Below, one piece after another: positions 27,721 through 64,000 of a stretch of 64,000 nucleotides of DNA (its first letter is position 1; each line of letters starts with the position of its first letter). The notes beneath the pieces were generated by a model. The model worked only from the letters and a program-made list of their open reading frames with translations, did not search any database and was not told where the DNA came from. Source of the DNA: Flavobacterium album (GTDB lineage Bacteria; Bacteroidota; Bacteroidia; Flavobacteriales; Flavobacteriaceae); NCBI RefSeq assembly GCF_003096035.1, contig NZ_CP029186.1, positions 1,935,001 through 1,999,000 on the forward strand, in the 5' to 3' direction. Position numbers and translations under genes: made by a program.

Positions 27721-28545
27721 ATGAAAAAGTATCTTTCAAAAATAGTAGTCTTTGCCCTTTTAGTTGGGGTATTGTCAAGCTGCGAAGAAGACAAGATTGT
27801 TTACAAAGGAGATGGCCAATCTTTGGTTGGTTTCAATACTGCCGCAGGCAATCTTAAAACTTATGACCCACAGGAATCCACAAATCCTTCTGAGATTATC
27901 GTAGAAGTGGGCTCTACCAAGAAGGTAAATTATGACAGGACTGTACAGGTTGTAATAAATGATGAACTTACTGATGCATTACCGTCTCAGTATACTATCG
28001 ATCAGAGCACGTTTGTTATACCTGCAGGTGAGTTTACAGCAAAAATTAAAATTACGGGGCATTATGATGCACTTACTGATATCAAGCAAACCTTAACACT
28101 TGATTTGATATCTGTTCAGGACCAGGATATCTTTGACGCGAAGAGGGCAAGATATACAGTGTCAATATACAGGGTTTGCCCAAGGGACATTCCGTTGACC
28201 TATACTGGTTACGTAACTGGTGAAGTAGGCGGGGCTACTGAAGAATTTACTGTTACATTTGTTCCTACCGCAGATGCTGCTACTTATAATGTTGCAAATT
28301 TATGGGGTAATTTTGTTTCAGGAGCTACTGGATCTAATTATGACGGACAATATCCATATCCGGCTAAATTGGTAATAAACTGCGATAACACGGTTGATAT
28401 TACTCCGGATTCAAATTCACAAGTTGCTACTGACGGTAGCGATGGTACATTTGATCCTGATACTAACGAATTCCAGCTGTCTCTTACTCAGGATTTATTT
28501 TCTGATCCATTTACCGCCGATATATACCTGATACCGGCACCATAA
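27721..28545 (+). CDS. SusE/DUF1735-like surface lipoprotein of the SusCD operon
   Basis: 274 aa with lipobox Cys21 (LSSC). The N-terminal half has the beta-sandwich pattern found in DUF1735/DUF4843-type proteins (VGSTKKVNYDRTVQVVIND, TFVIPAGEFTAKIKI); the C-terminal half (about 160-274) is another all-beta domain ending in FTADIYLIPAP. It starts 14 bp after susD and ends at a strong terminator, so it belongs to the operon and probably helps bind substrate at the surface. The ligand is unknown. Confidence 0.8.
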   Translation: MKKYLSKIVVFALLVGVLSSCEEDKIVYKGDGQSLVGFNTAAGNLKTYDPQESTNPSEIIVEVGSTKKVNYDRTVQVVINDELTDALPSQYTIDQSTFVIPAGEFTAKIKITGHYDALTDIKQTLTLDLISVQDQDIFDAKRARYTVSIYRVCPRDIPLTYTGYVTGEVGGATEEFTVTFVPTADAATYNVANLWGNFVSGATGSNYDGQYPYPAKLVINCDNTVDITPDSNSQVATDGSDGTFDPDTNEFQLSLTQDLFSDPFTADIYLIPAP

Positions 28546-28566
28546 TCGGTTATAATTTAATATCAA

Positions 28567-28597
28567 AAGGGCTTTCATACGAAAGCCCTTTTTTTTG
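28567..28597 (+). terminator. terminator of the susCD operon
   Basis: Perfect 10-bp stem AAGGGCTTTC / GAAAGCCCTT with ATAC loop and a run of T. Confidence 0.95.
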
Positions 28598-28632
28598 GCG
28601 TTTTTTGAATATTCCCGTTCCTAAAATTTAAT

Positions 28633-28640
28633 TACATTTG
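28633..28640 (+). promoter_or_regulatory. -7 box TACATTTG of the porin gene
   Basis: TAnnTTTG match 16 bp before ATG 28657. Confidence 0.65.
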
Positions 28641-28656
28641 CCTAAACTTAATCCCG

Positions 28657-30636
28657 ATGCAGAGAATTTTTCTTTCTATTTTTCTTTTAATGCTGCCTGT
28701 ACTGCTTTTTTCCCAGGATAAGAAAAAAGGAAAATTAAATTCGTCCCCAAAAGGGAATTCCGCTTCTATACAGCGCGATGATAGTGATAAGGGCACGGGC
28801 CAGGCCAAAACGGCTGCTGATACTATCGCTACCATAGATATGTACAAGATCGTGACCCTGGAAAGGGATACAATCATCGTAGATACTTCTCTGACAATCA
28901 AAAACGAATATCAGAATAATTACCTGCGGAAAGATAACTTCGGCCTTCTTGCTTTTCCGAATGATGGGCAAACTTACAATACGCTCGATTACGGACTGAC
29001 AAAATTCAATCCGTTTCCCGGGTTTGGTTTTACTGCGAAGCATTTTAACTACATGGAAGTTGAAGACATAAACTATTATAATGTAGCAACTCCATATACC
29101 GATCTTTTCTATAGGTCTACCCAAAAACAGGGGCAAATACTGGATGCCTTTATTACGGTAAATACTTCAGAGAATCTCAATATGTTTGTCGGCTATCGAG
29201 GTATAAGATCAATAGGTAAATACATAAATTCTATTTCAAGTAACGGAAATCTCCGCATCGGCGGCAGTTACAATACAAAAGATAAAAGATATTTTTTAAA
29301 GCTCCATTTTACCGGACAGGACCTTTCTAACCAGGAGAACGGTGGCATCATCAATACTGATTTTTTTGAAAGCGGGGTCGATCCCTACACACAGCGGGAG
29401 CGTCTGGATGTTTATTTTAAAGATGCCACATCTATGCTTAAAGGCAATCGCTTTTTTGCAGACCATACATTCAGGCTTAACAAGAGTAACCCAAACAGCA
29501 TTGTCTTCCACCACAGGTTTACGTACGAGAATAAGTTTTTTGAATATACCCAGCCTACAAAAAGTACAAGGTTTGGTGCGGCATATACAACTTCTATCAA
29601 CAATAAGACACGCTATAATATGATGTATAATATGGTGGGCGCTGCTTATTCTAACGAAAAGATCGGTATGGTGGAGTTTTATGTAGAAGACTTTAATTAC
29701 AACTATTTTTACAGGACCATTATCCTTAATCCCAATGGTTCTTTGGGTGTGCCCAACGCCATAAATGACAGAGTTGATACTTATGGCGCAAGATATACCT
29801 ATCATAAAAACAAGCTGAAAGGCAGTGTACTTTTCTCAAACTCGATCACTAAACAATCACTCGCTAATATCGATATCTCTGCCCGATATACTTTCGATGA
29901 AAATAACAGCGTTTCGGCACGCTATCAAAACATGAACAAGCTGCCTAACCAGAATTACAAGCTTTACCAAAGTGATTATAAGGCCTACAACTGGTATAAC
30001 CCTAACGTTAAGAACGAAAAGATCAATAGCTTTGAATTTGAGGCCAAAACGAAATGGGTTGATGCCTCTGTACAATATACCATACTCAACGACCATTTAT
30101 ATTTTAAAAATGAGTTTATAAATACGATCTCTACCCCTGCGAATATCGATACGCTATATGTGAAGCCGCAGCAGTATGGGAATACGATCAATTATTTTTC
30201 GGTTAAGGTAGGGCGTGAGTTCAGGGTTTGGAAACTGGCCCTTGATAACACGGTTTTGTATCAAAAGGTTGACCAAAGGGACAATGTGATCAATGTTCCC
30301 GAACTCGTAACAAGAAATACGCTGTATTATTCCGATTATGTATTTAAAAAGGCCTTGTATTTCCAAACCGGTATCACCTTCCAGTACTTTACTAAATACT
30401 ATGGGAACGACTACAACCCATTGATCGGTGAATTCTTCGTACAGGATAAAAAGAAGTTTGGCGATTTTCCGCTAATGGATTTTTTTATTAATGCTAAAAT
30501 AAAGGAATTCAGGATGTTCCTGAGAGCTGAACACTTTAATTCGGGCTTTACCGGATATGATTATTATTCGGCGCCAAACACTCCCTATCGTGATTTTACT
30601 GTGCGTTTTGGCGTAATTTGGGATTTCTTCTCATAA
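28657..30636 (+). CDS. putative porin (Bacteroidota Porin_10-type)
   Basis: 659 aa with a signal peptide ending LLFSQ (20). A low-complexity Lys/Ser stretch follows, then YLRKDNFGLLAFPNDGQTY and a long series of amphipathic beta strands (for example FAADHTFRL, YTYHKNKLKGSVLFSN) that close in VRFGVIWDFFS with terminal aromatic residues. This is the pattern of the 'putative porin' family of Bacteroidota, about 600-700 aa. No TonB box or plug is present, so passive diffusion across the outer membrane is likely; the cargo is unknown. Monocistronic. Confidence 0.85.
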   Translation: MQRIFLSIFLLMLPVLLFSQDKKKGKLNSSPKGNSASIQRDDSDKGTGQAKTAADTIATIDMYKIVTLERDTIIVDTSLTIKNEYQNNYLRKDNFGLLAFPNDGQTYNTLDYGLTKFNPFPGFGFTAKHFNYMEVEDINYYNVATPYTDLFYRSTQKQGQILDAFITVNTSENLNMFVGYRGIRSIGKYINSISSNGNLRIGGSYNTKDKRYFLKLHFTGQDLSNQENGGIINTDFFESGVDPYTQRERLDVYFKDATSMLKGNRFFADHTFRLNKSNPNSIVFHHRFTYENKFFEYTQPTKSTRFGAAYTTSINNKTRYNMMYNMVGAAYSNEKIGMVEFYVEDFNYNYFYRTIILNPNGSLGVPNAINDRVDTYGARYTYHKNKLKGSVLFSNSITKQSLANIDISARYTFDENNSVSARYQNMNKLPNQNYKLYQSDYKAYNWYNPNVKNEKINSFEFEAKTKWVDASVQYTILNDHLYFKNEFINTISTPANIDTLYVKPQQYGNTINYFSVKVGREFRVWKLALDNTVLYQKVDQRDNVINVPELVTRNTLYYSDYVFKKALYFQTGITFQYFTKYYGNDYNPLIGEFFVQDKKKFGDFPLMDFFINAKIKEFRMFLRAEHFNSGFTGYDYYSAPNTPYRDFTVRFGVIWDFFS

Positions 30637-30920
30637 GATTTATATTTTTTGAATTATCGTCTGAAAATTAAACACTTATAACAATAGTTTGGAATAGTGT
30701 TATTTTTCCACAATAATCAAAACATTAATAAGGTAGGATTACGAAACTTATTTTATTAATTAAAATTTATCTTATTTAGGTTGAAAGCTGTTAATTTATT
30801 CAAGTAATTCTTTCGGTTTTGAATTAAATGCGGGTCTTTCGGGGAGTTTGTGATTTTTATTTAAGATTTTGATTACTATTTTTATGAAATTATTAATCAA
30901 AATTTAAATTAAAAAAAGCT
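30637..30920. other. AT-rich leader region of the repeat-protein gene
   Basis: 284 bp without a gene. A weak hairpin (AACACT / AGTGTT, 30671-30701, long loop, followed by ATTTTT) may end the porin transcript. No exact TAnnTTTG box is seen before ATG 30921, so the promoter of the large T9SS gene is not identified. Confidence 0.35.
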
Positions 30921-33900
30921 ATGAAGAAAACTACCTTCGGGAGTCAGCTCGTGGCTAAAAAGAAACAGTGGTTTACAATGCTCGCTGTAGCATTGCTGTC
31001 CTTTTTAGGTCATTCAGCGTATTCCCAGGTTGGCACGACCTGCGAAAATCCAATTGTGATTACAGGCCTGCCTTACACTACTACGGACAATACTGCAAAC
31101 TATGCAGATAATTACGATCCACCGACGGCTTCGAGCCCTGTATGCAGTACCACTAGCAGCGGTAACTATTATCATTTAGGTAATGATGTAATTTATGCTT
31201 ACACACCAGCGACAAATAAAAGCATTAATATACGTATGCCCAACGGTGTTGCATGGTCAGGTATGTTCGTTTATACAAGTTGCGCGAATATAGGTATTGA
31301 ATATGCTGCCTGCGCTACAAGTACAACTGCAGGAAACAGGGAAATAAACAACTTCCTCGTAACCGGCGGGCAGACCTATTACATTTTATTATCTATTTGG
31401 GAAACGCCTTCAACTTTTGCGTATACCCTGAATATAACAGAAAATACCTGCGCTAACCAGGCGGCTACATTTGGAATAGTATCCAACTGTGCGGTAACCC
31501 CGGGCTTTTTCGCGACTGCAAACATCACCAGCATGGGATCGGCTACATCATTGACGGTGACCGACAACCAGGGTAGCGCTCCGCAGGTAGTTACGGCTAC
31601 AGGACTGGTAACTTTTGGGCCATATACTAATGGTACTTCGGTAAACCTTACAGTTGCTAACACTACAGATTCCAATTGTGTTGTAACGGGTACAGCCCTT
31701 ACGCAGACAGCCTGCCCTCCGGCAAATGACGACTGTGCAGGTGCAATTACACTTATTCCAAGTGCGAATACTACATGTGCCGGTACTACAGCCGGTACTA
31801 CTTTGGGTGCAACGCAGTCTATGGCTGCCGGTGTATGCAGTGGAACTCCTGACGACGACGTGTGGTATAAATTTGTGGCTACTGCCTCTGTACACACCAT
31901 AACAATATCGGGTACAGCTGCTGTATCGGGCACTTCAACAGATATGTACTTCCAGGTGCTTAGTGGTACTTGTGGTACGACAACAAGCCTTCTTTGCTCT
32001 GATCCCGACACTGGCTCAGTTTCAGGCCTCACGGTAGGTGATACGTATTATGTAAGGGTGTACAGCTATGGAAGCTCTTCAAGGAATACCTTCAATATCT
32101 GCGTAACTACGCCTCCTGCTGCCGTTGCTAACGACGATTGTGCAGGTGCGGTGACGCTTACAGTGAATACTGCAGATACCTGTACGACTGTAACCGCGGG
32201 TACGACCGCTAATGCTTACCAGTCAATGGGTGCAGGTGTATGCAGCGGCACGCCGGATGACGATGTTTGGTTTAAATTCGTTGCTGCAAGTACTGTGCAA
32301 AGGATTACTTTGTCAGATGTTGTTGCCGTTTCCGGTACAAGCACAGACATGTACTTCCAGGTACTGGATGGTACTTGCGGAACGACTACAAGCCTTTTGT
32401 GCTCTGATCCAAATACCAACCTGGTTGCAGGACTTACTGTAGGCAATACTTACTTTATCAGGGTATACACCTATGCTTCTACTTCAAGGGCTACTTTTAA
32501 TATATGTGTTTCTACGCCGCCAGCACCACCGGCCAACGATGAATGTGCAGGAGCGATAACACTTACGGTAAATAATGACCTTAACTGTGGTGTAACAACT
32601 GCAGGAACAACGGTTAATGCGTACCAGTCTATGGCTGCCGGCGCATGCAGCGGTACACCTGATGATGATGTATGGTTCAAATTCGTAGCTACAAAAACGA
32701 TGCATACCATATCTCTTTCTAACGTTGTTGCTGTAACAGGCACCTCTACAGATATGTACTTCCAGGTATTGAGTGGTACTTGTGGCAACACAACAAGCCT
32801 GCTTTGCTCTGATGATAACAGCAATTTCGTTACAGGGCTTACAGTTGGCCAGACTTATTATGTAAGGGTATATTCTTACGGAACCACTTCAAGGGATACT
32901 TTCAACATCTGCATCGGCAGCCAGCCGGCTCCTCCTGCAAATGACGACTGCGCCAATGCGGTAACGCTTACAGTAAACCCTGACAACACATGTACTGCGG
33001 TAACTGCTGCCACTACTGCTGGTGCAACATTATCTATGGCTGCAACGCCTTGCAGCGGAAACCCTGACGATGATGTTTGGTTTAAATTTGTTGCTACAGG
33101 TACATCACAAAAAATAACCATTTCAGATGTGGTAGCATTAGTAGGTACTTCTACAGATATGTACTTCCAGGTAATGGGCGGTGCCTGCGGCTCTACAACC
33201 AGCCTGCTTTGCTCAGATGATAACACAAACACAGTTTCGGGCCTTACTGTAGGCGCTACTTATTATGTAAGGGTATACAGCTACGGAGCTTCTTATGCGC
33301 AAAACTTTAATATATGTGTATCTACGCCACCGGCGCCACCGGCAAATGACGATTGTGCCGGCGCGATAACGCTTACTGTAAACCCTGACCTTGCTTGTGG
33401 TACGGTAACTGCCGGTTCTACTGCAAATGCGCTTCAGTCTATGGGTGCAGGTGTTTGTTTCGGTACACCGGATGATGATGTTTGGTTTAAATTCGTTGCG
33501 ACCGGTACATCACACAAAATTTCCCTGTCTAACGTTGTTGCCGTATCGGGCACATCTACAGATATGTATTTCCAGGTATTGAGCGGCCCTTGCGGAAGCA
33601 CTACAAGCCTTCTTTGTTCTGATGCAGATACGAATACTGTAACAGGACTTACTGTTGGCAGTACCTATTATGTAAGGGTATACAGCTACGGTACTTCTTC
33701 AAGGGATACCTTCAACATTTGTATTGGCTCTTTCCCTCCGCCACCGGCAAACGACCTGTGTGCGAATGCGACCGTGCTTAACGTAGGGGTTGATTTTGCT
33801 ACTGCTAAAGTTACTACTACTACTGCGGGCTCTACCTATACGGCTTCCGGCCCGACACCTACATGCGATGCAACAGGATTTGCATCAAGCGGTGACGTTT

Positions 33901-60892: not shown

Positions 60893-61204
60893 ATGAGTGA
60901 CGAGAAACAGCAGCCAGGGCAGATCAACATCGAACTGGACGAGAAAACAGCTGAAGGCATCTATTCCAACCTTGCGATCATCAACCACTCCGCTTCAGAA
61001 TTTGTGGTGGACTTCGTGACGATCATGCCCGGTGTGCCAAAAGCCAAAGTAAAGTCGCGCATTGTATTAACGCCCCAGCATGCCAAGCGCCTGCTGAAGG
61101 CTTTAGGCGAGAACATCCACCGCTTCGAGAGTGCCCACGGTACCATCAGCGATATGGAGCAGCCGCCCATTCCACTGACTTTCGGGCCTGCAGGACAGGC
61201 TTAA
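60893..61204 (+). CDS. DUF3467 family protein
   Basis: 103 aa, soluble. QINIELDEKTAEGIYSNLAIINHS and SEFVVDFVTIMPG...AKVKSRIVLTPQHAKRLLKAL are the DUF3467 pattern; the C-terminus ends PPIPLTFGPAGQA. It lies 4 bp after rpoC and shares the transcript, as in other Bacteroidota, which hints at a link to transcription or stress; the activity is unknown. Confidence 0.9.
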   Translation: MSDEKQQPGQINIELDEKTAEGIYSNLAIINHSASEFVVDFVTIMPGVPKAKVKSRIVLTPQHAKRLLKALGENIHRFESAHGTISDMEQPPIPLTFGPAGQA

Positions 61205-61211
61205 GATAAAG

Positions 61212-61243
61212 AAACCCCTTTCGGAAACGGAAGGGGTTTTTTG
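61212..61243. terminator. terminator of the rpoBC operon
   Basis: AACCCCTT / AAGGGGTT stem, inner CG-GAAA-CG, then TTTTTTG. It lies at the junction with the AT-rich island and ends exactly where the minus-strand gene's stop begins. Confidence 0.9.
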
Positions 61244-61798
61244 TTATTCCTCATTTTTTTCTAATTCTTCACGAATATGATTTCCAAATATTTTTGTTAC
61301 TATAAATCTAAAAATAGGGATGAGGATGATATTGATAATTAATAAGCAAATAAAATAAATTGTTAAATTTATATTTATATTCCAAATGGAATTAAAGGTA
61401 AAATAGTAAATTAAAATTTTAAAAAAACAATATGTTAAAAAAGTGTAAAGTATAGTGAAAAAGAATTGTAATTTAGACTCCTCTTCTTCTAATTCTTCAG
61501 ATTTTTCTTCAATAAATTCATTGATTCTATTTATTTCATTTCTGTCAACAACTTTTTCTATTGCATATTTGATTATACTACTTAAACTTATTGTATCAAA
61601 GATATTGTATGGAATGCTAAATATAAAACTCCATAACATTAGTAATAGGAAGTCATATAAACTGGTTGTACTTTCTGAAAAAAAACCTTTTTTAAAAAAT
61701 ATATCTAAGACAACTAAACCAGGCAAGGTATAATTTAAGAACATAAAAATTTTACTTCTAAAAAGTTTTATGTTGGTTTCATTGAAAATTTCACTCAT
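61244..61798 (-). CDS. four-helix membrane protein of the AT-rich island
   Basis: 184 aa, very AT-rich coding. Hydrophobic segments at about 17-35, 47-68, 108-130 and 136-165. Between helices 2 and 3 is a charged, mostly acidic loop (NRINEFIEEKSEELEEEESK, about 86-105) and the C-terminus is charged (HIREELEKNEE). No enzymatic motif and no known family recognised. It begins 12 bp after the phosphoesterase gene and is the last gene of the three-gene minus-strand operon. By analogy with conflict systems it could be a membrane effector or anchor, but that is inference. Confidence 0.7.
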   Translation of the reverse strand: MSEIFNETNIKLFRSKIFMFLNYTLPGLVVLDIFFKKGFFSESTTSLYDFLLLMLWSFIFSIPYNIFDTISLSSIIKYAIEKVVDRNEINRINEFIEEKSEELEEEESKLQFFFTILYTFLTYCFFKILIYYFTFNSIWNININLTIYFICLLIINIILIPIFRFIVTKIFGNHIREELEKNEE

Positions 61799-61810
61799 AC
61801 ATATATGATA

Positions 61811-63292
61811 TTAAGATTCATCTTTTGGCATTCTAGCATACACATAACAAATCGCTTCTGATTTATCATTAAAAAACATTTTAGCTTGAATGAGCATTGG
61901 TCCCCAGTAATGATAAGAAAATGAAAAATTAGGATTATCATCTCTTAAACAAATTATTTTTTTAAAATATTCACCAGCAGTCCATTCTACTTTTTCTAAA
62001 AGCGATCCTTTATATAATTCAGGTTTATGCTGAACAATCCATCCTCTAGCTTCATAAGCTTGTCCAGGAATTAACGATGGCATAACCTCAATAACGGGCA
62101 TATGATATTTTTGATTTTTGTATTGCTTGAGCCGTTCCGTATCATCAGTTATTTTTTCGGTATTTACAACGCCTACAATAGGGACTGTTTTATATGGTGT
62201 AATTACTCTGTCAGTGACATTAACTGTTTCCCACTTCCATAAATCTGGAGATAGCGGTCTCTTTGCGGTTCTAATTAACCCTCTTGTAATTACATTTATT
62301 CTGGCTTGCTGCGCATCTGGATGCCATTTTATTGTAATTAATGAATATGTATTACATGCTTTATTAGAAATTTCGGTAGGCAATTCTCTGCTACCACAGC
62401 TCCCGCCAGCAATTACAACTTGAGGTATCTTACTCTCGCTATTTGACCATAATGGTGTTGGCTCATAATTGAAGATTTGTGGATAGTGCTTATGACCATG
62501 TAAAATTAAATGAAAGTTGTGCTCGCTGAGCAACTCAAGTAAATATCCTGAATTCATTATAGAATCTACTCCTCTTCCTGGTTCTATAAATGAAGGTAGT
62601 AATACAACGTGATGATGTATTACAACTATTTTTATATATTCATTAAAATCTTTTTCAGTAGATGAAATCTTTTCAAGTTCTTCTCTTAACCTTTTAATTG
62701 AATCGTAGTCAACTTGTCCTCTGCTACTGTCAATGGTATCTTTTTCCACATAGATACAACAGTTAATTTCAACAATGGTTACTTTATTACCTTCAAGATT
62801 TTTAATGTGCACTTGAGTAAGTTCTTCAGGTTTATGAGATACCTGAGGCGGACGAATACCGTCGAAAAATTTATTATAAAAGCTACAGTAAGGTTGAAAT
62901 CTTTCGTCTTTAGTAGAGTCTGCGAATCTAACATCATGATTTCCGGGCACAAAAAAAATATCTGATTTTTCGACACGCCTATTGAGTAACATCTCTGAAG
63001 ATAGTCTGTTTAAAAAGATAAGAGCTTCATTAAACTCGTCATGCTTTGCTTTTTGCGTAAAATCTCCGGAGACAGCAACAATTAATGGGGATTCTTTTTG
63101 ATCTGAATAATCTGTTTTATCAATTACAGTTCCCCCGAAATCAATTTGTAAGTCGTCTATAATTAAATCAGCAAGTGTCGGTATGCCTTTTTTTGAGGCT
63201 GTAGGTGGAGGATTACAAATATGATATTCTCCAAAATGTAAATCGGAAAAATGCAAAATTTGTATCTGATTAGTATATGATATATTACTCAT
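61811..63292 (-). CDS. calcineurin-like phosphoesterase with possible YEATS-like C-terminal domain
   Basis: 493 aa, no signal peptide. Residues 10-320 are a metallophosphoesterase with every metal motif: D17/H19 (SDLHF), GDFTQ (76-80), GNHDVRF (117-123), HHH (226-228) and GHKH (266-269). Enzymes of this type can be phosphatases, cyclic-nucleotide phosphodiesterases or nucleases. The region 330-420 is a linker; residues about 432-487 (KVEWTAGEYFKK ... NPNFSFSYHYWGPMLIQAKMFF) fit the beta-sandwich pattern of prokaryotic YEATS domains, by eye only. Starts 8 bp inside the upstream small gene. AT-rich compared with rpoC and mutL on either side. Confidence 0.85.
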   Translation of the reverse strand: MSNISYTNQIQILHFSDLHFGEYHICNPPPTASKKGIPTLADLIIDDLQIDFGGTVIDKTDYSDQKESPLIVAVSGDFTQKAKHDEFNEALIFLNRLSSEMLLNRRVEKSDIFFVPGNHDVRFADSTKDERFQPYCSFYNKFFDGIRPPQVSHKPEELTQVHIKNLEGNKVTIVEINCCIYVEKDTIDSSRGQVDYDSIKRLREELEKISSTEKDFNEYIKIVVIHHHVVLLPSFIEPGRGVDSIMNSGYLLELLSEHNFHLILHGHKHYPQIFNYEPTPLWSNSESKIPQVVIAGGSCGSRELPTEISNKACNTYSLITIKWHPDAQQARINVITRGLIRTAKRPLSPDLWKWETVNVTDRVITPYKTVPIVGVVNTEKITDDTERLKQYKNQKYHMPVIEVMPSLIPGQAYEARGWIVQHKPELYKGSLLEKVEWTAGEYFKKIICLRDDNPNFSFSYHYWGPMLIQAKMFFNDKSEAICYVYARMPKDES

Positions 63293-63620
63293 AGAAATAT
63301 ATTTCTCTTTCTGTATGATTTATTGTTCTTGATCCAATGGCTGCAAATTTTTCTTCATTGGAGTTTTCTATTTGTTTAAGTCCAACCCTTATAAAAGAGC
63401 CAGTAACAATTTTTTGATTTCCAGGGCGAAGTTCAATTTTGAAATTTGGTTCATAAGCATCTTCTTGAAATTTGCCTTTTTCTTTACCTCTCCACCTATG
63501 CCAAACTTGAGCTTCTATAACAGACGGGCCCGCATTAAATAATAGTGTTTGAGTTAATAAATTTCCTTCGACAATAATAGGATTGTGATTTTCTGTTACA
63601 GGAGTAATAATTTGATACAT
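63285..63620 (-). CDS. small beta-rich protein of the AT-rich island
   Basis: 111 aa, soluble. Alternating hydrophobic strands (IIVEGNLLTQTLLFNAG, VIEAQVWHRWRG, FKIELRPGNQKIVTGSFIRVGL) suggest a beta-sandwich, perhaps a binding domain. No recognised family. First gene of the minus-strand operon; its last 8 bp overlap the start of the phosphoesterase gene, so translation is probably coupled. Function unknown. Confidence 0.65.
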   Translation of the reverse strand: MYQIITPVTENHNPIIVEGNLLTQTLLFNAGPSVIEAQVWHRWRGKEKGKFQEDAYEPNFKIELRPGNQKIVTGSFIRVGLKQIENSNEEKFAAIGSRTINHTEREIYFYE

Positions 63621-63730
63621 AGGTTTTAAGTTATAAGTTTAAGTAAACCTACAAAAATTTTGTTAAAGCCCATCACGTATTTCCCGCAATAATATCAATC
63701 ACGTAATTTCCCCCATCCCGCAAAAATCCT

Positions 63731-63738
63731 TAACTTTG
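63731..63738 (+). promoter_or_regulatory. -7 box TAACTTTG of mutL
   Basis: TAnnTTTG match 31 bp before ATG 63770. Confidence 0.65.
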
Positions 63739-63769
63739 ACATTACCAATAAATCGCTATTTCCTACACA

Positions 63770-64000
63770 ATGTCCAGTATTATCCAGTTACTTCCCGATC
63801 ATGTTGCCAACCAGATAGCCGCCGGTGAGGTGGTGCAAAGGCCGGCCTCCGTCGTGAAAGAGCTCCTGGAAAATGCCGTGGATGCAGGCGCTACCGAGAT
63901 CAAGCTCATCGTGAAGGATGCGGGTAAAACGCTGGTGCAGGTCATCGATAACGGCAAGGGTATGAGCGTGACCGATGCGCGCCTGTGCTTCGAGCGCCAT
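63770..64000 (+). CDS. mutL: DNA mismatch repair protein MutL (5' part, cut by window end)
   Basis: The first 77 codons of a frame that continues past the window. The encoded start ([20 protein letters not shown]) and the following [16 protein letters not shown] and IDNGKGM are the GHKL ATPase motifs I and II of MutL, including the catalytic Glu and the Mg-binding Asn. MutL links MutS mismatch recognition to strand removal. Preceded by its own -7 box and divergent from the AT-rich island. Confidence 0.95.

Follow-up and report, generated by a model that had tools for sequence, protein, structure and literature searches.

The window analyzed here (64,000 nucleotides of Flavobacterium album DNA) contains an acquired island of three genes between the rpoC block and mutL, in which two genes, kept in two phyla, form the conserved unit as judged by sequence comparison. 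Gene 2 is of a recognizable kind, predicted to be an intact calcineurin-like phosphodiesterase fused to a pYEATS domain, and is preceded by gene 1, which codes for a small protein. A conflict role of the module is likely. The explanation that we favor, and to which we give somewhat better than an even chance, is a horizontally moving conflict module, most likely anti-phage, with the small beta protein and the phosphodiesterase-pYEATS protein as its core, and with the pYEATS domain and the small protein gating the enzyme.

Layout, composition and insertion site of the island

The three open reading frames (Table 1) are located in the ORF list exactly where the earlier note had placed them, all on the minus strand; genes 1 and 2 overlap by 8 bp, and 12 bp separate genes 2 and 3. 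The small conserved gene after rpoC, which we take to be DUF3467-like, and mutL flank the island.

Table 1. Coordinates of the island genes, predicted domains, borders and flanking genes in the window
Feature	Positions	Strand	Description
Small conserved gene after rpoC	60893-61204	plus	left flank
rpoC-operon intrinsic terminator	61209-61242	plus	left island border; aligns with terminator at F. akiainvivens empty site
Gene 3	61244-61798	minus	184 aa ORF; membrane protein, 3 or 4 hydrophobic segments
Gene 2	61811-63292	minus	493 aa ORF; calcineurin-like phosphoesterase with C-terminal pYEATS; PF00149 + PF20305
pYEATS domain of gene 2	61835-62056	minus	residues 413-486; PF20305, E=1.8e-13
Metallophosphoesterase (MPP) domain of gene 2	62480-63262	minus	residues 11-271; Pfam PF00149
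Gene 1	63285-63620	minus	111 aa ORF; small partner protein, predicted all-beta
Conserved promoter-like block upstream of mutL	63722-63752	plus	right island border; aligns with F. akiainvivens empty site
mutL start	63770-64000	plus	right flank

The lower G+C that had been noticed by eye is clear when measured. The G+C of the island is 0.304, which is 4.7 standard deviations below the mean of 0.444 (standard deviation 0.030, minimum 0.365) of 295 segments of 2.4 kb, all lying wholly before the island and none as low. The values for the individual genes are 0.318, 0.335 and 0.214 (genes 1, 2 and 3, respectively). At third codon positions (GC3) they are 0.17, 0.23 and 0.20, compared with a median of 0.50 for 32 large ORFs, and the GC3 of gene 2 is the lowest among the 32 non-overlapping ORFs of at least 200 aa. 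Outside the island, the lowest G+C (0.365-0.384 in 2.4-kb segments) is found at positions 28201-31600.

F. akiainvivens likewise has rpoC, the small gene and mutL in this order, and ~123 bp lie between the small gene and mutL. This empty site keeps both the terminator and the block upstream of mutL, matching the two edges of the island; the insert therefore measures ~2.45 kb and extends from after 61242 to ~63721. No 9-base words are shared by the island borders, and a scan for sigma-70 promoters gave no more matches than in shuffled sequences.

The gap between rpoC and mutL was compared in 20 congeneric regions, with mutL lying within the stretch in three and not found in the stretch in the other 17. 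The gap measures 675 bp with one 167-aa ORF in genome G024, 2256 bp with three genes (one of them an acyltransferase) in G033, and 5.6 kb in G032, where 10 ORFs have 60 aa or more. The cargo in G024 and G033 differs from that of the window, and is likewise of low G+C and on the same strand.

The interval between the gene after rpoC and mutL can be described as a small, well-defined insertion hotspot of Flavobacterium (window 61243-63721; locus L037, 1070-1573; L045, 1055-3099; L078), empty in F. akiainvivens, occupied by a different set of low-G+C genes in each of G024, G033 and the window, and a place to look for further cargo. In a near relative (G078; L036, 3976-5169), two toxin-antitoxin-like pairs were read from the ORFs, 2.7-3.9 kb after the same small gene.

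The enzyme encoded by gene 2

The earlier note had described gene 2 as a full phosphoesterase with an extra C-terminal domain, and this extra domain can now be named as pYEATS. Both Pfam families are matched well over their cut-offs (PF00149 with 48 bits against 21.5, PF20305 with 50.6 against 26.9), and the AF2 model of the protein has a pLDDT of 89. Calcineurin-like metallophosphoesterases bind their metals through the motifs DxH, GD, GNH[D/E], H and GHxH. In gene 2 the motifs D17xH19, G76D77, G117N118H119D120, H226-H228 and G266H267xH269 are present, and each active-site position is kept in 48 or all 49 of the 49 aligned relatives. By structure comparison, the MPP fold resembles Rv0805, SMPDL3A, GpdQ, purple acid phosphatases and acid sphingomyelinase. 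The enzyme family is not small, since 377 proteins in the protein database match gene 2 at E<=1e-10.

The model of the pYEATS domain retrieves the YEATS structures of GAS41, AF9 and ENL in Foldseek (E 5.5e-4 to 5e-3, TM scores by target mostly 0.4-0.57). The aromatic residues W418, W437, Y462 and W463 are conserved and offer only a lead, as candidates for the recognition of a ligand (acyl-lysine or other). The domain is present in 9 of 395 genomes of the phylum, and no MPP fusion was seen at the eight other pYEATS loci, which were read by ORF list and in part scanned with profiles.

Some of the other pYEATS proteins have companions of their own. In two Bacteroidota genomes a small membrane protein is encoded near pYEATS proteins with membrane segments (L067, 7097-8019; L070, 4708-4995 and 6245-7366), the two small proteins sharing 28% identity along 80 aa; at L067 the pYEATS and membrane proteins are adjoined by a patatin-like phospholipase. 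This arrangement may be another pYEATS system. At L065 (4171-6619) the gene immediately after that of a phage tail collar-domain protein encodes a pYEATS protein whose N terminus bears a hydrophobic segment.

The small partner protein and the gene pair

A homolog of gene 1 is found directly upstream of the enzyme at loci L001, L003 and L064, as in the window. No match to the small protein was detected at L002 (tblastn, E<=1), so the pairing holds for four of the five loci (two from Flavobacterium, one from Pedobacter, and one on a Rhizobium plasmid). The two genes are separated by 4 bp in Pedobacter and by 1 bp in F. akiainvivens, and overlap by 4 bp in Rhizobium. Sequence comparison thus describes a conserved unit of two genes, gene 1 and gene 2, kept in two phyla.

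The alignment of the small protein (six sequences) has 16 invariant columns, with identity down to 32%. Its AF2 model, calculated from five sequences, consists of eight strands at a pLDDT of 74, and a jelly-roll or cupin-like all-beta fold is assigned with low confidence. Gene 1 gives no Pfam match over the cut-off. When its profile was searched apart from the enzyme, no confident match was obtained in 389 other genomes of the phylum; the second match after the window's own (in G095) is borderline (E=0.009), has two stops inside, and was dropped. In the protein search two homologs besides gene 1 itself were found, on contigs of 145,904 and 18,054 bp. Contigs of equal size carry two of the enzyme homologs, which suggests that these genes are linked in the same way.

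The membrane protein encoded by gene 3

The description of gene 3 as a four-helix membrane protein was roughly right: three segments exceed a Kyte-Doolittle value of 1.6, while the fourth peaks at 1.55. At its own base composition, an open frame of this kind is expected by chance with P ~1e-8. No Pfam match over the cut-off was found, the protein search returned only gene 3 itself, and tblastn at the four other loci yielded a single match at the level of chance (E=0.22, 36 residues, at a distance of 4 kb). The absence of relatives is weak evidence, because the same type of search missed three known relatives of gene 1, those in L001, L003 and L064.

The three-gene system of the earlier note is not borne out: no homolog of gene 3 was found, and the other four loci have no gene 3. 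A conserved membrane effector as a general third gene was rejected, with gene 3 at one of five loci only and no homolog in the protein search. Gene 3 is probably a local add-on and may be unrelated to the function of the pair.

Distribution and transfer of the enzyme

Searched with gene 2, no genome but the window's own carries the enzyme among 59 other relatives (1 of 60 with the window's own), 397 other sampled genomes of the genus (1 of 398) and 394 other sampled genomes of the class (1 of 395). These sets are samples from larger groups, and 333 of the 398 genus genomes have a completeness of 90% or more and no more than 5% contamination. As a positive control, the same query recovers three of the three genomes known to carry the enzyme. 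A family search around genome G331 found it in 0 of 147, in a set that holds no known positive. The F. akiainvivens copy came from a separate collection and does not belong to the sampled genus genomes with the enzyme.

The genome-contig search detected relatives in Pedobacter caeni (63% identity), in a Bacteroidetes MAG (55%) and in F. akiainvivens (54%). The window enzyme resembles that of Pedobacter (63-64%) more than that of F. akiainvivens (54-57%), whereas the gene after rpoC has the opposite pattern, with 59% identity to Pedobacter and 86% to F. akiainvivens, the latter falling inside the 65-91% range of matches within the genus. In F. akiainvivens the enzyme lies at contig position 31,793, and the neighbor of rpoC at 4,226,155. 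A more distant relative (34% identity) is encoded by Rhizobium johnstonii, on a plasmid classed as mobilizable, the only record returned by the plasmid searches. One weak match was found in phage records (24.5% identity over 68%); in viral contigs there was none with the single gene 2 sequence and one weak match (28%) with the alignment. A phage origin of the enzyme was rejected on the weakness of these phage and viral-contig matches.

The comparisons point to an enzyme that is rare among the sampled genomes and travels between bacteria. A housekeeping or native operon was also rejected, on the absence of the enzyme from the other relatives, genus and class genomes at the thresholds used. What had been called a compact, apparently acquired operon has held up, by its low G+C, by a site that is empty or otherwise filled in relatives, and by the lack of the enzyme in the other sampled genomes of the genus. 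The opposite case, the same three genes at this site in all relatives with normal composition, was looked for, and none of the 59 relatives or 397 genus genomes has the enzyme.

Neighborhoods of the relatives

The Pedobacter pair starts 303 bp after a tRNA-Lys gene and is followed by a homolog of PD-T7-4 (PADLOC E=2e-82), a system that has been shown to defend. Further on are a gene resembling endolysins and a weak match to excisionases (E=0.006); no att repeats were found downstream of the tRNA. A 184-aa gene of no known family stands right after the PD-T7-4 homolog (L001, 8511-9062). In Rhizobium, a SIR2-like gene, a tyrosine recombinase and two IS transposases lie within 6 kb upstream of the copy. 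The copies in the window, in F. akiainvivens and at L002 have ordinary neighbors, with no defense genes beside them in the reading of the ORFs. The context therefore favors defense or mobility at two of the five loci and is neutral at the rest.

Proposed function and alternatives

The pairing of the genes, the conservation of the active site and the fusion to pYEATS agree with an enzyme that is held or aimed by two parts, each with a sensing or binding role. In the mechanism that we propose, the pYEATS domain and the small protein would sense a cue of infection (a ligand or a modified protein), and this sensing would release or position the phosphodiesterase. The phosphodiesterase would be the effector, cleaving a nucleotide or nucleic-acid substrate and so stopping phage growth. 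The membrane protein, present in the window only, could serve as an accessory effector or anchor; the role of an extra effector is considered because small membrane proteins accompany calcineurin-type enzymes in other predicted conflict systems (PMC7159879). In favor of an anti-phage module we count the kinship to DS-9A, the Pedobacter context (PD-T7-4, tRNA-Lys, endolysin-like gene) and the SIR2-like and mobile context in Rhizobium. Against it we count a profile score of 135 bits where 420 are required, no match in PADLOC, three copies without defense neighbors and the unpaired enzyme at L002. A more specific version, which we regard as decidedly speculative, is that a bacterial YEATS domain and its jelly-roll partner read an acylated protein or a related mark during infection and switch on the fused phosphodiesterase, so that a chromatin-type reader would gate an immune nuclease or nucleotidase.

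An ordinary accessory phosphodiesterase, engaged in nucleotide, lipid or glycerophosphodiester turnover and carried on small AT-rich inserts, with pYEATS as a binding or oligomerization domain only, is an unlikely alternative, although the fold also resembles GpdQ, purple acid phosphatases and acid sphingomyelinase, many homologs are named 3',5'-cyclic AMP phosphodiesterase CpdA by the source database (among the best 120 of the 377), and the neighbors look ordinary at three of five copies. The very sporadic distribution, the pairing with an uncharacterized small protein across two phyla, the DS-9A kinship and the neighbors of the Pedobacter copy speak against it.

We consider it quite improbable that the operon is a signal-erasing switch, in which the membrane protein is a killer effector, kept in check or released by a nucleotide messenger that the phosphodiesterase destroys or controls. 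Gene 3 begins only 12 bp downstream of the enzyme, Rv0805 and SMPDL3A, to which the MPP fold is matched, are phosphodiesterases, and calcineurin-type genes with SLATT membrane effectors are described in PMC7159879; yet gene 3 follows the enzyme at one of five loci, no homolog of it was found in a search of limited sensitivity, and loci of Flavobacterium, Pedobacter and Rhizobium have the pair but not gene 3.

Least probable is an enzyme that serves counter-defense or a mobile element by breaking down immune nucleotides of the host. In its favor, evasion of bacterial immunity by a phage phosphoesterase is reported (PMC12287305), and mobile elements or phage-like genes are found near two of the copies; against it, the phage and viral-contig matches are weak and all five copies read are in bacterial records. 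The anti-phage module with a gated phosphodiesterase remains our preferred reading.

Comparison with known systems

Profile searches recovered MPP, pYEATS and a remote kinship to DS-9A for gene 2, and gave no Pfam family over the cut-off for genes 1 and 3. The statement that no established system matches was too broad, as the enzyme is an MPP-pYEATS protein related to DS-9A, though below family cut-offs. In PADLOC-DB 2.0.0 no system was matched, with weak partial hits only (the best being PDC-S60, 28.8 bits, a model of 1027 positions). By the tests run, the gene pair falls outside DS-9, DS-8 and all PADLOC systems.

Burroughs and Aravind (2020, J Bact) reportedly predicted immune systems with prokaryotic YEATS domains. 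Their pYEATS systems have PF20305 in common with gene 2 and may already include the pair of MPP-pYEATS and small beta protein; a claim of novelty is limited, because the paper introducing pYEATS may already describe this architecture. In the CC-licensed literature searched, no paper on pYEATS in defense was found.

In the GAP1-N1 conflict systems, a calcineurin phosphoesterase is accompanied by SLATT 2TM membrane proteins (PMC7159879). A calcineurin-type enzyme and a membrane gene share a cluster there as here; in contrast, the window operon has no GTPase or GAP1 gene. Gene 3 was not matched to SLATT, with no Pfam match over the cut-off and no homolog in the protein search. The phosphodiesterases Rv0805, GpdQ and SMPDL3A share 12-18% identity with gene 2, which has an extra beta region and pYEATS.

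DS-8 is a single protein of MPP and NACHT, with partial MPP similarity to gene 2 (39 bits against 790); gene 2 has half the length of DS-8 and no NACHT domain in the Pfam scan. DS-9 (DefensePredictor) consists of the metallophosphatase DS-9A and a HAD phosphatase, and the likeness to gene 2 lies in the MPP domain. DS9_1_antiphage is the best NCBIfam match of gene 2 (residues 6-303, 135.2 bits against a cut-off of 420), and this profile matches four of the four enzymes scanned with 113-135 bits. The match starts at position 190 of the 486 of the DS-9A profile, whereas in gene 2 the MPP domain is N-terminal and pYEATS C-terminal. In place of the HAD phosphatase, the window has genes for a beta protein and a membrane protein as neighbors, and these two give no Pfam match over the cut-off. 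Catalytic mutants of the metallophosphatase lose defense in both DS-8 and DS-9 (DS-9A), as stated in PMC13092281, and the enzyme of the window may work like DS-9A. Should the pair prove to defend, it would add a defense metallophosphatase with a new two-gene arrangement to DS-8 and DS-9. Being compact and expressible, it would then help to find what metallophosphatases of the DS-8/DS-9 type cleave, and would let one test directly what is read by prokaryotic YEATS domains.
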